From: Candidatus Nanoarchaeia archaeon
Lineage (GTDB): Archaea; Nanobdellota; Nanobdellia; SCGC-AAA011-G17; GW2011-AR17
Direction: 5' to 3'
NCBI GenBank assembly: GCA_028706745.1
Contig: JAQTVM010000012.1
Span: 1 to 50,532, forward strand
DNA length: 50,532 nt
The notes beneath the pieces were generated by a model. That model worked only from the letters and a program-made list of their open reading frames with translations, made no database searches and was not told where the DNA came from. The translations under genes were made by a program, and so were the position numbers. Below, one piece after another: positions 8,956-46,449 of this stretch. Each line of letters starts with the position of its first letter. Position 1 is the stretch's first letter.

Positions 8956-9028
8956 GGGGCCGTAGTCTAGTTTGGTAGGACACAAGCTTGGGGTGTTTGT
9001 AACCGGGGTTCAAATCCTCGCGGCCTCA
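8956..9028 (+). tRNA. tRNA-Pro(GGG)
   Basis: 73 nt. The acceptor GGGGCCG pairs with CGGCCTC, discriminator A at 9028; D stem GTC/GAC; anticodon stem CAAGC/GTTTG with loop TTGGGGT (anticodon GGG); T arm CGGGG-TTCAAAT-CCTCG. CCA is not encoded. A TATA box at 8918-8928 (CTATATAAATA) lies about 30 bp upstream. Confidence 0.92.
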
Positions 9029-9121
9029 TTTTAAATGCAAAGTGCAGGCATTAACTTGCAGGCACAGAAAAGAAGAATGCCGTGAGGCTTCGAACGAAGT
9101 GAGATTGCCTCGCGGCCTCAT
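9029..9121 (+). repeat. Hairpin unit ending in a copy of the tRNA-Pro 3' end
   Basis: The last part of tRNA-Pro, CCTCGCGGCCTCAT at 9016-9029, is repeated exactly at 9108-9121. Before the second copy, GCCGTGAGGC (9080-9089) pairs fully (one G-T) with GCCTCGCGGC (9107-9116). The loop contains GAACGAAGTGAG (9092-9103). The same arrangement with the same loop motif occurs after tRNA-Ala. Confidence 0.75.
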
Positions 9122-42851: not shown

Positions 42852-44075
42852 ATGGAAATCAAGAGGTGCTGGTACCATCCTTTCAGCTTTTCAAGAGAGA
42901 TGCTTAATGTGCCTTACAATATTAAGATGATTTCTGTCGTAATATTCTTTTATTACTTAGGCTGGGGAATTGTGTCTCCTTTCCTGCCATTGTATTACAA
43001 GACAATCCTTGGAAGCTATACTGCTGTCGGTCTCGTTACTGCCCTGCTTCCCTTGTTTGCACTGCTCATAGATATCCCTGCGGGCGGAATCATAAACAGG
43101 GTTTCAAAAGTATGGGTGTTAAGGATTGCATTATTGCTTTACCTTCCGTTTAGCTTTTTTCTTCTTTCACTTAAGAATATTTTTCACTTTGTCCTGTTCA
43201 GGATATACCATTCTTCTGTTTCAACGCCGTTCTGGATTTCAGCTGATTCATACGCACGCGGAAATGCGCAAAAATGGAAAGCTGCAGAGTCAATGTCTGT
43301 GTATGATGTCGGCGCGACATTAAGCCTTGTCATAGGACCGATAATCGGCGGTATATTGTTTGTTTATTTTGATTTTTCCCTGCTGTATGCAATCTCAATA
43401 TTTGCGGGCATTGCGCTTATTGCCTCTTTTTTCTTAAAGGACAGCGAGAAGCATGAAACAGCAAAAGAGGCTGTGAAAAATCTTATATTTTCAGACGGCG
43501 TGTACAAGCGCGCGATTGTTGATTTTTTGCAGAACAAGCTTCTTGTCAAGGTATATTCCTTTGTATTCCTTTTCAGGTTCTGCATGTCTTTTGTCGTGAT
43601 GCTCCTTCCCCTTTTCCTGAAGGAGTTTGGGGCTTCCAATTTTCAGATAGGGCTTGTGTTCGGATTGTATTACCTTCCTTTGCTGTTTGAGCCTTACTTC
43701 TCAGTCTATGCAAAGAACAAGAGATTAATGACAATGGGGCTTCTTTTGTGCGCTGTATTGTTTGTTTCTTTGTTTGTTAACAACAGGCTGTCTTTCATAT
43801 TTTTCCACGCAATCCTGCTTTCATTGCTGTTTGCAGCCATAATCCCGATGCTTAACGGAAGGATTGTTGAGCTTATGCCCAAGGAGCAGATGGGGGAGTT
43901 GTCCGGAGTTGGCATGATGTTTATGCATGTTGCTGATTTTGCAGGGCCTATTATTGCAGGAGTTGTTTCTGACGCATTTGGATTGAGTTACATGTTCTTG
44001 GTTGGCGCAATGGTTGCGTTTGGATTAGTAATGCTTTCTTTGAGGAAAAGCTTCAGAACTGCTTTGTTTGATTAA
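42852..44075 (+). CDS. Major facilitator superfamily transporter
   Basis: 407 residues, about twelve helices. After a short N-terminal stretch: VVIFFYYLGWGIVSPFLPLY, GLVTALLPLFALLIDIPAGG, DVGATLSLVIGPIIGGILF in the first half and IGLVFGLYYLPLLFEPYFSV, LSGVGMMFMHVADFAGPIIA in the second. Typical MFS layout. Substrate cannot be read from sequence. ATG 42852 lies at the usual distance from ATTAAATAAA (42820-42829); the frame to 42795 is not supported. Confidence 0.85.
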   Translation: MEIKRCWYHPFSFSREMLNVPYNIKMISVVIFFYYLGWGIVSPFLPLYYKTILGSYTAVGLVTALLPLFALLIDIPAGGIINRVSKVWVLRIALLLYLPFSFFLLSLKNIFHFVLFRIYHSSVSTPFWISADSYARGNAQKWKAAESMSVYDVGATLSLVIGPIIGGILFVYFDFSLLYAISIFAGIALIASFFLKDSEKHETAKEAVKNLIFSDGVYKRAIVDFLQNKLLVKVYSFVFLFRFCMSFVVMLLPLFLKEFGASNFQIGLVFGLYYLPLLFEPYFSVYAKNKRLMTMGLLLCAVLFVSLFVNNRLSFIFFHAILLSLLFAAIIPMLNGRIVELMPKEQMGELSGVGMMFMHVADFAGPIIAGVVSDAFGLSYMFLVGAMVAFGLVMLSLRKSFRTALFD

Positions 44076-44088
44076 GTGAAGAAAGCCA

Positions 44089-44104
44089 TTGGGGAGCGCC
44101 CCAA
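44089..44104 (+). terminator. Hairpin after the MFS gene
   Basis: TTGGGG and CCCCAA around AGCG, 13 bp after the stop. Similar in form to 8792-8811. Likely transcript end; both may be copies of one short element. Confidence 0.5.
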
Positions 44105-44114
44105 ACCCCCTAAC

Positions 44115-44284
44115 TCCATCCTGCTGAATGGACTCGTCGGTATTCTCACTTTGTTCAGAACCGCCGAGTGCCACTAAAGTGGACTCGTCGGGTTGATGGA
44201 CTTCGTCCCTACCCGCCTAGTCCTCAGAAGTGGACTCGTCGGTTTCCTCACTTTGTTCAGAACCGCCGACTCCATCCTGCTGAA
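44115..44284 (-). repeat. Three hairpin units, each ending in a copy of the tRNA-Ala 3' end
   Basis: TGGACTCGTCGG, the last 12 bases of tRNA-Ala (complement), recurs at 44129-44140, 44180-44191 and 44231-44242 besides the tRNA copy at 44285-44296 (spacing 51, 51, 54). Read on the minus strand, each unit forms a 10-11 bp stem whose 3' side is the tRNA 3' end. Two loops contain GAACAAAGTGAG (44145-44156, 44247-44258). Outer strings (CTCCATCCTGCTGAA) also repeat. Confidence 0.85.
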
Positions 44285-44357
44285 TGGACTCGTCGGGATT
44301 CGAACCCGAGGCCTTTCCCGTGCGAGGGGAACGCTCTACCAACTGAGCTACGAGCCC
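44285..44357 (-). tRNA. tRNA-Ala(CGC)
   Basis: 73 nt. Acceptor GGGCTCG/CGAGTCC with the G3-U70 pair that marks alanine tRNAs; anticodon stem TTCCC/GGGAA with loop CTCGCAC (anticodon CGC); T arm CTCGG-GTTCGAAT-CCCGA; discriminator A at 44285. No CCA is encoded. Followed by three repeat units. Confidence 0.94.
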
Positions 44358-44436
44358 TTAGCTTATTGTGGAGATAGAATGCCTTTTTTAATGTTGCGGT
44401 AAGATAATAGAAGAAGAAAAAAAGAAAAAAATAAAT

Positions 44437-46449
44437 TTAATCCCTGCCAGAGCCAAAACTCTGCTGCTTCTTTCGCTTGAGGAATTCTCCCCTCACATAT
44501 TGCTGCCTTTCCTTGTCAGTAGGCTCGCGCCAAAAAACAAGCACGTGCTTTTTCCTGTAGCCAAGAACTGCAAGGAAAAGCACAAGCAGCACTCCTATTG
44601 TTATCCAGAGCGCTTTTAAGCTTACTTTTTCAGCTTGTTCTTCAATGGCTGCTGCAATAGGGGCAACTTCCAAATCTTCTGTCAGGTTTGTTTCTTCTTC
44701 AGCAGGAGTTGCTTCAGCAGGCTTGTTCGCAGTTATGGCAAAGTAACTGAATCCGGAACTTGTTGCTTCAAAGTAAACTTTGTTTGCATCAGATGATTCC
44801 ACTTTGACAGGCAGTAAGACCCACTTAGTTGTATACCTTTGCAGCTTAATATCTGAAGGGCTAAACCCATTGTCATCGAGCCATTCCTTTGTCACAAAGA
44901 AGCTTATTTTTGCATTTTTTATTGTTGCATCATCGAGGTTTGTCTTTGTAATCTGCAGGTATTTGTATATTCCTCCATTTGGCGTGTCAATCCCTGACGG
45001 CTTTCCTGACAGTGACTCTACGGTTACTCTTACATTTGAAGCGGATTCTTTAACTTCAAACTGAACTTCTGTTATGGGTATGTTTGAGTCACTTACCCTT
45101 ACTTTTGCAGTAGTGCCGGGAGATACAGATAAAGTTGTGCTAGTTGATGCTGAGGATGAACTGCTTCCACCAGATGATGTGGGTGTGTTTACAGTAAATG
45201 TGCTTTCTGTGTAGGCAGTGTGCCCCACATAATCAGTTGCAGTGCACCTTACTGTATAAGTGCCTGCCTGGGCTGTGTCTGTAAATGTGCCGTCAAGATC
45301 AGTTGAATAAGTGTCATCAGGTTTCTTTACTGTAAAACTTGCTGAGGGATTGGTATCCCTTGTATGGCTAGCAGAGCATGTTATTGTCTCACTGTCAAGC
45401 GTATAAATTAATGCAGATGAGATAGATAATGAAGGCGTCGGGGGTGTTACGTCAACATAAAATGCCCTGAAGTTATAGCCAGAGTCGTTGAACGTTCCTG
45501 TCGTGTTTGCATTGCCGACAATATCAGTGCAGTTCACATACCACGCGTGATATCCTTCTGATAAATTGTTCACTGCCTGACTTGCTGCTGCGCCTGAAGC
45601 GCTTGCCGCATACCACCCTGTCAAATTCCTGACTCCGTCAACAACAAGGCTGCAGTTAACAACAGTTGAAGTTGCATCTGTTGTTGTCCAATTCAGATAA
45701 ACAGTGCTTGAGCTGAAGTTTGTGTTGTTTGCAATAGCCGGAGCTATGTTGCTTGGCGCTAAATTGTCAACAGCTAAATTGCCTGTGCTGCTGGACGCAG
45801 TGTTTGCAGTTGCATTTGTCGGGTCCCAGCAGGTTACGCCCCAAACATAATTGCCGTCAGGCATGTTTGCAACAGTCGTGGAATTCAATGAGCCGTTTGT
45901 AACCATTACAGTTGCATTTCCAACTCCGTCAAATGTAAGATTGCACAGGAAGTTTACTGCAAGGTTGTCTGTTGCTGTCCAGTTGAATACAATCGTTCTT
46001 GCAGTTGTGTTAAGCGCAGTCGGCGCATTAAGAGTGATTGTCGGCGCAGTAAAATCAACATACAATGTTCTGTTTGCTGCAGCCATCAGACTGCTTCCGG
46101 GAATTGAAGCATTATATGCCTCGCAATTCCATGCATATTGTGCTTCAGTAAGTCCTGTTATCGGGAATTCTATTGTTGTGCTATTGAATGCAGGGCTTTG
46201 GTTCGCTAAATGAGTTACTTCTACTCCATTCACAGCCCATATACGTAATGTTATATTCCCTAAATCTGTTTCAGTTGCATTCAATACAGCAGTACAGTTA
46301 AAATTAACATCACCGCTTGCACTCCACGTATTGTCTGCAGGAGAATCCAGTGTTACTGAAAAGATTCCTGCAAATCCATATATCGCAAAAATAGCAATTA
46401 ATATCGCGCCTATTATTAAGAATCCTGATAAAGACTTACCTTGTTTCAT
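44437..46449 (-). CDS. Surface glycoprotein with PGF-pre-PGF domain
   Basis: 670 residues. Signal anchor (MKQGKSLSGFLIIGAILIAI), then several Ig-like repeats with many N-x-S/T sites (FSVTLDSPADNTWSASGDVN; TIVFNWTATDNLAVNFLCNL; VYLNWTTTDATSTVVNCSLV), a Ser-rich linker, a PGF-pre-PGF domain (VQFEVKESASNVRVTVESLS, TKEWLDDNGFSPSDIKLQRY, FEATSSGFSYFAITA), an acidic stalk and a C-terminal helix with a basic cytosolic tail. Likely a cell-surface protein. ATG 46449 fits a TATA box at 46475-46487. Confidence 0.8.
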   Translation of the reverse strand: MKQGKSLSGFLIIGAILIAIFAIYGFAGIFSVTLDSPADNTWSASGDVNFNCTAVLNATETDLGNITLRIWAVNGVEVTHLANQSPAFNSTTIEFPITGLTEAQYAWNCEAYNASIPGSSLMAAANRTLYVDFTAPTITLNAPTALNTTARTIVFNWTATDNLAVNFLCNLTFDGVGNATVMVTNGSLNSTTVANMPDGNYVWGVTCWDPTNATANTASSSTGNLAVDNLAPSNIAPAIANNTNFSSSTVYLNWTTTDATSTVVNCSLVVDGVRNLTGWYAASASGAAASQAVNNLSEGYHAWYVNCTDIVGNANTTGTFNDSGYNFRAFYVDVTPPTPSLSISSALIYTLDSETITCSASHTRDTNPSASFTVKKPDDTYSTDLDGTFTDTAQAGTYTVRCTATDYVGHTAYTESTFTVNTPTSSGGSSSSSASTSTTLSVSPGTTAKVRVSDSNIPITEVQFEVKESASNVRVTVESLSGKPSGIDTPNGGIYKYLQITKTNLDDATIKNAKISFFVTKEWLDDNGFSPSDIKLQRYTTKWVLLPVKVESSDANKVYFEATSSGFSYFAITANKPAEATPAEEETNLTEDLEVAPIAAAIEEQAEKVSLKALWITIGVLLVLFLAVLGYRKKHVLVFWREPTDKERQQYVRGEFLKRKKQQSFGSGRD

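Follow-up and report, generated by a model that had tools for sequence, protein, structure and literature searches.

The window, a stretch of 50,532 nucleotides, is contig C7 in the 1.24 Mb genome of a small DPANN-type archaeon; this genome is labelled G000 below. On its reverse strand lies a tRNA-Ala(CGC) gene whose 3' end, CCGACGAGTCCA, has no encoded CCA, and downstream of this gene three hairpin units are arranged in tandem (Table 1). The terminal 12 nt of the gene, corresponding to tRNA positions 62-73, recur exactly in every unit, each time preceded by a near-complementary strand, and the tRNA end and its three copies follow one another start-to-start at distances of 54, 51 and 51. An earlier note had described these copies at steps of about 51 bp as well as two nearly alike loops; both descriptions are confirmed, the loops in question being those of units 1 and 3, which are nearly identical (95%). 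The second occurrence of the 16-nt linker, beyond unit 3, is a trace of duplication. Among 20,000 first-order Markov shuffles of the 200 nt downstream of the tRNA-Ala gene, none contained any 12-nt copy, and genome-wide the 12-mer occurs in exact form only at the two tRNA-Ala genes with that end and in the array itself. The predicted folding of the array region beats that of 200 out of 200 shuffles (z = -4.2). A second unit-bearing gene in the window, tRNA-Pro(GGG), has its end copied exactly at 9108-9120, with a T-rich tract coming next.

Table 1. Positions of the unit-bearing tRNA genes, their units and the linker repeat in the window
Feature	Position	Strand	Description
tRNA-Ala(CGC)	44285..44357	-	ARAGORN; Rfam RF00005, 71.3 bits
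Unit 1	44231..44274	-	5' arm TGGAGTCGGCGGTT (44274-44261), cap with GAACAAAGTGA, 3' arm CCGACGAGTCCA (44242-44231)
Unit 2	44180..44223	-	5' arm GGACTAGGCGGGT (44223-44211), cap GGGACGAAGTCC, 3' arm CCGACGAGTCCA (44191-44180)
Unit 3	44129..44173	-	5' arm TGGCACTCGGCGG, cap similar to that of unit 1, 3' arm CCGACGAGTCCA (44140-44129)
16-nt linker repeat TTCAGCAGGATGGAGT	44113..44128	-	other copy directly 3' of tRNA-Ala (44284-44269)
tRNA-Pro(GGG)	8956..9028	+	carries the second unit of the window
Long-linker unit 3' of tRNA-Pro(GGG)	9079..9120	+	GCCGTGAGGC, cap TTCGAACGAAGTGAGATT, GCCTCGCGGCCTCA

Occurrence and anatomy of the units

To survey such units, tRNA genes were called with RF00005 in this genome and in three congeners (G001, G002 and G003), and the stretch downstream of each gene was scanned for a copy of its own end. 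An exact 10-mer of the own end was detected for 15 of 38 tRNAs (G000), 14 of 33 (G002) and 12 of 32 (G003), whereas the ends of other tRNAs occurred on the identical downstream stretches at a background of 0.5-1%; the units copy the end of their own tRNA. When up to three mismatches were allowed and a hairpin was demanded, the numbers were 20/38 (G000), 12/32 (G001), 16/33 (G002) and 12/32 (G003). In G000, G002 and G003, one Val match each was subtracted, since it represents an adjacent tRNA gene, and the two tRNA-Leu genes of the window add two unit-less tRNAs to the total of G000. The corrected numbers of unit-bearing tRNAs are about 19/40, 12/32, 15/33 and 11/32, respectively, which means 34-45% in the congeners. 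The expectation raised in the earlier note, that similar units accompany other tRNAs of the genome and of its relatives, clearly holds.

Outside the genus the picture is different. None of 67 tRNAs in four other genera of the family and order carries a unit by either criterion, and the Ala-specific pattern, for which 103 genomes of the order were scanned, is present in three of them, which all belong to this genus. A looser test, a scan for own-end copies of at least 9 nt, gave scattered cases in other archaea, namely Bin_444 (3/14), W9 (4/9, some of them weak) and Woesearchaeota CG10_45_16 (1/10). Longer duplications of the tRNA-Ala 3' part, including the T-arm, were observed behind the gene in Methanolinea (L137) and Halobacteriales (L113), and they are of another make than the units of this genus; the bacterial matches of the collection scan had no tRNA nearby. 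Our literature searches found no description of these archaeal units. Since the presence of a unit differs even between close relatives, no single unit is essential, which counts against the trailer explanation proposed below.

Across 69 units of the four genomes, the copied segment comprises positions 62-73, while position 61 already differs in 32 of the 69. The 5' arm complements the tRNA end in a tailored way, mostly by Watson-Crick pairs, and the proposal of the earlier note that the units resemble half of a tRNA, built of T-stem and acceptor, is supported. Two classes can be distinguished. In the short-linker class the copy lies within about 60 nt of the tRNA, and the minimal form is about 44 nt; pairing is 0.42 for position 69 and 0.55 for position 65, compared with more than 0.8 at most other positions. 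The bases opposed at these two mismatches are mostly purine-purine, and for 69 as well as for 65, at least one unit is unpaired in 7 of 10 tRNA families. The long-linker class measures about 80-100 nt and has an AT-rich linker, often with a hairpin of its own; here positions 61-69 are paired throughout, and 71-72 in about half of the units. A decoy for RNase Z and the CCA-adding enzyme, as suggested in the earlier note, is conceivable, but because of the mismatches in the former class and the frequently open 71-72 in the latter, neither is a clean processing substrate.

RNase P RNA and RNase Z are both encoded, and the idea of a genus lacking one of these enzymes was hence rejected. The RNase P RNA (G000:C31:177-536, G001:C184, G002:C34, G003:C108) has about 350-360 nt and is longer and lower-scoring in this genus than in the other genera of the order. 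Neither a C/D nor an H/ACA guide RNA could be recognized, with no consistent boxes by eye and no Rfam match above the cut-off. The cap GAACNNAGTGA was also rejected as a defining motif: G000 has 43 sites with such loops against 6 for the reversed pattern, many of them away from tRNAs, at gene ends and near start codons (L146, L166, L167), which marks it as a general hairpin cap. A second short repeat of the genus, composed of ATAAGGG, a hairpin, CCCTTATCAACC and further hairpins (G000:C30:16852, G000:C21:105524, L346-L368), directly adjoins the 3' or 5' borders of tRNA genes and also follows immediately upon unit copies (G001 Lys, G003 Phe); it has 23 matches in the four members of the genus and none in two other genera.

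Probable co-transcription and base pairing

The T fraction is 0.39 after the last copy, 0.23 directly after unit-bearing tRNAs and 0.35 after unit-less tRNAs, so a T-rich, terminator-like tract is displaced to the 3' side of the last copy. In G000, G001 and G002 the last unit of tRNA-Asp ends 3 nt before tRNA-Lys, and no TATA box was found in the stretch upstream of tRNA-Lys, which was read in G000 and G002. The displacement of the T-tract, together with the location of the Asp units, indicates that the units are very probably part of the pre-tRNA, and the co-transcription of array and tRNA suggested by the earlier note is in this sense supported by position.

The hairpins might instead be transcription terminators, which end the tRNA transcripts or insulate neighbouring genes. 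The last copy is indeed often followed by T-rich DNA, hairpins capped by GAACNNAGTGA stand elsewhere too, one of them before a T run (L146), and enterobacterial RtT-like elements overlap with BIMEs that are able to terminate (PMC2965389). However, the Asp units are inside an Asp-Lys operon in three species, with tRNA-Lys beginning 3 nt downstream and no promoter of its own where the stretch was read, which speaks against terminators at least for these units. Moreover, unit-less tRNAs equally often have T-rich tracts behind them, and termination gives no need for an arm that equals the tRNA end. We regard this explanation as most improbable.

Counting the in-register combinations of the stems, with registers taken from predicted folds and related units not being independent, we obtained 643 Watson-Crick pairs, 53 G-U, 1 A-C and 46 purine-purine. 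If the stems decayed neutrally, or were selected as DNA hairpins, A-C should appear about as often as G-T, thus the ratio of 53 to 1 argues for selection on the transcribed RNA. At positions with a G.U pair in the tRNA, A-U is mostly found in the unit (26 versus 12), and therefore most wobbles of the units are not inherited. Pairwise comparison of orthologous units between the genomes gave 24 position comparisons in which the copy followed a change of the tRNA, 3 in which it did not, and 7 in which it changed alone, the tRNA being unchanged; these are not independent events, and some of the Ser comparisons are probably mis-paired. Compensatory pairs were found at position 67 of Pro(CGG) (C-G to T-A) and at positions 67 and 71 of Phe (G-C to A-T), in each case with a like change in the tRNA. 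At position 66 of Gly both arms changed with the tRNA unchanged, and in Lys(CTT) of G000, as read by eye, the copy has diverged from the tRNA and the opposite arm has followed it. As far as sequence comparison can tell, this points to units that are selected as RNA, with their pairing kept in an RNA manner.

Duplication, and possible insertion or template switching

At the DNA level, identical tandem units occur behind the Arg CCT, Met and His tRNAs, and clean empty sites at Gly GCC of G001 and Phe of G002. Along with the repeated 16-nt flank of the tRNA-Ala array, they indicate duplication and loss between direct repeats. At another site (G001:C169:3540-3598, L008), a tRNA-Ala(CGC) has a T-loop longer by 17 nt, the extra part of which resembles a unit cap; this gene seems to have been fused with its unit by deletion.

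Such dynamics would also be expected if the units were a functionless by-product. According to this explanation, template switching during replication makes the reverse-complement arm, slippage or unequal crossing-over at the 12-nt repeats copies, multiplies and deletes units, and the apparent conservation is nothing but mending by further template switching. Creation and repair of RNA hairpins in one event of this kind have been reported (PMC8794818), and the mostly Watson-Crick arms, even at G.U positions of the tRNA, fit it, as do the identical tandem units and clean empty sites. Nevertheless, the excess of G-U over A-C is unexpected under decay at the DNA level, the mismatches at 69 and 65 recur across tRNA families, and the units are confined to one genus within its order. 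On balance we consider a neutral origin unlikely.

Alternatively, an integrase or casposase targeting tRNA 3' ends could have left short inserts with target duplication, as remnants or miniature elements. The 12-nt direct repeats do sit at tRNA 3' ends, where casposons can insert with target duplication (PMC6614799), and the likeness consists in this short direct repeat; Cas1 genes are present in G000 and G001 and partially in G002, and another small repeat of the genus lies at tRNA borders and behind unit copies. Against this, an insert would not bring a tailored complement of each target. Unlike an element that is unrelated to its target and has ends of its own, the inserts here contain the complement of the repeat, have no coding capacity and keep an RNA-like pairing. 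Exact copies of this tRNA-Ala end stand only behind tRNA-Ala genes, and the unit-bearing G003, a draft about 95% complete, gave no match to PF01867 (Cas1). Scars of integration are thus a very unlikely explanation. The suggestion of the earlier note that the array is purely a record of repeated site-specific insertion does not stand, in view of the background level of other tRNAs' ends, the tailored stems and the predominance of G-U over A-C. A CRISPR array was rejected as well, because two of the three loops are nearly alike, every unit is complementary to its repeat and unrelated spacers are absent. By eye, the copies contain no GTT core of integron attC sites (GTTRRRY/RYYYAAC).

Proposed function and comparison with known systems

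We think it rather probable, judging from sequence, that the array exemplifies a class of transcribed tRNA trailers which extends through the genus, is similar to the RtT element of E. coli and is selected as RNA. The casposon, CRISPR, integron, terminator and simple lock readings of the array fit less well. In the favoured scheme, tRNA and unit would share one transcript; cleavage of the tRNA end at the discriminator base would then leave the unit in the trailer, from which it would be set free as a small hairpin RNA, in the way reported for E. coli RtT. By recombining with each other, the direct repeats would keep the second tRNA end equal to the first, and this would account for the tandem copies as well as for the clean losses. 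The 5' arm would be selected to hold the second end in a hairpin.

As to the effect, the likeliest one, which we put forward tentatively, is that the hairpin competes with or delays the 3' maturation of its own tRNA. In equilibrium folding, the mean probability of native tRNA pairs decreases from 0.84 to 0.33 when the unit is included. The predicted competition could be harmful and would then count against the trailer explanation. A protective lock, in which the 5' arm sequesters the extra end, was rejected for want of folding support: the native pairing was 0.33 for the tRNA followed by its unit, 0.42 once the copy had been removed, 0.25 after masking of the 5' arm and 0.38 when the arm was made perfect. 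It is conceivable, if rather doubtful, that each unit is a private regulator, where arm, copy and tRNA strands constitute a three-way strand-exchange switch that sets tRNA maturation. If true, a large share of the tRNA pool in this genus would be adjusted through trailer RNAs, and such control would have arisen independently, on a small scale, in E. coli RtT.

Among known structures, the minihelix of tRNA acceptor and T-stem resembles the units in its 12-bp-like stem (1-7/66-72 plus 49-53/61-65) that ends at the discriminator base. The units differ from it in that the T-loop is swapped for another cap, that 4:69 and 49:65 are often mismatched in the short class, and that the pairing of 71-72 is often absent in the long class. 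The alanine G3:U70 pair is changed to A:U in the window units, and an alanine minihelix was ruled out on that account.

The closest counterpart is RtT (rttR, RF00391) of the E. coli tyrT-tyrV operon. To our knowledge, this little-studied element has been regarded chiefly as a peculiarity of enterobacterial and related tRNA operons. Repeats of 178 nt stand behind tyrV, and each of them comprises GGGGAAGGAT, several hairpins and an exact tRNA-Tyr end; upon refolding their arms pair at a probability of 0.97-0.98. In E. coli, cmscan detected four RF00391 copies with 133-138 bits, one of them between tyrT and tyrV, and the argX-hisR-leuT-proM operon has no copy of a tRNA end. The common layout is a tRNA, a linker, a complementary strand, a capped multi-hairpin loop and an exact tRNA end, which is that of the archaeal long-linker class. 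In both systems the closing stem is formed by the complementary strand and the exact 3' end of the upstream tRNA, and tandem repeats occur behind a tRNA as well as between two tRNA genes. Differing from RtT, the archaeal units are smaller (about 44 nt in the minimal form and 80-100 nt where the linker is long, compared with the 178 nt of RtT), lack CCA, stand behind many tRNA species and, in the short class, have recurrent mismatches at 69 and 65. No match to RF00391 was obtained in 43950-44450 at E up to 10, and we read the archaeal class as convergent with RtT and do not file it as a member of this family. RtT is reported to be set free when the tRNA is processed (PMC4986893), and a role in the stringent response has been proposed (PMC4986893, PMC2965389). 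By analogy with this layout, the idea in the earlier note that the array may be a source of tRNA-like small RNAs gains support, and its interpretation as a whole is partly supported. That the RtT layout is used genome-wide in an archaeal genus, behind between a third and a half of the tRNA genes, suggests that tRNA biology has arrived more than once at trailers with a copied tRNA end, and the orthologous genes with and without units offer many natural replicates for the effect of such trailers on maturation.
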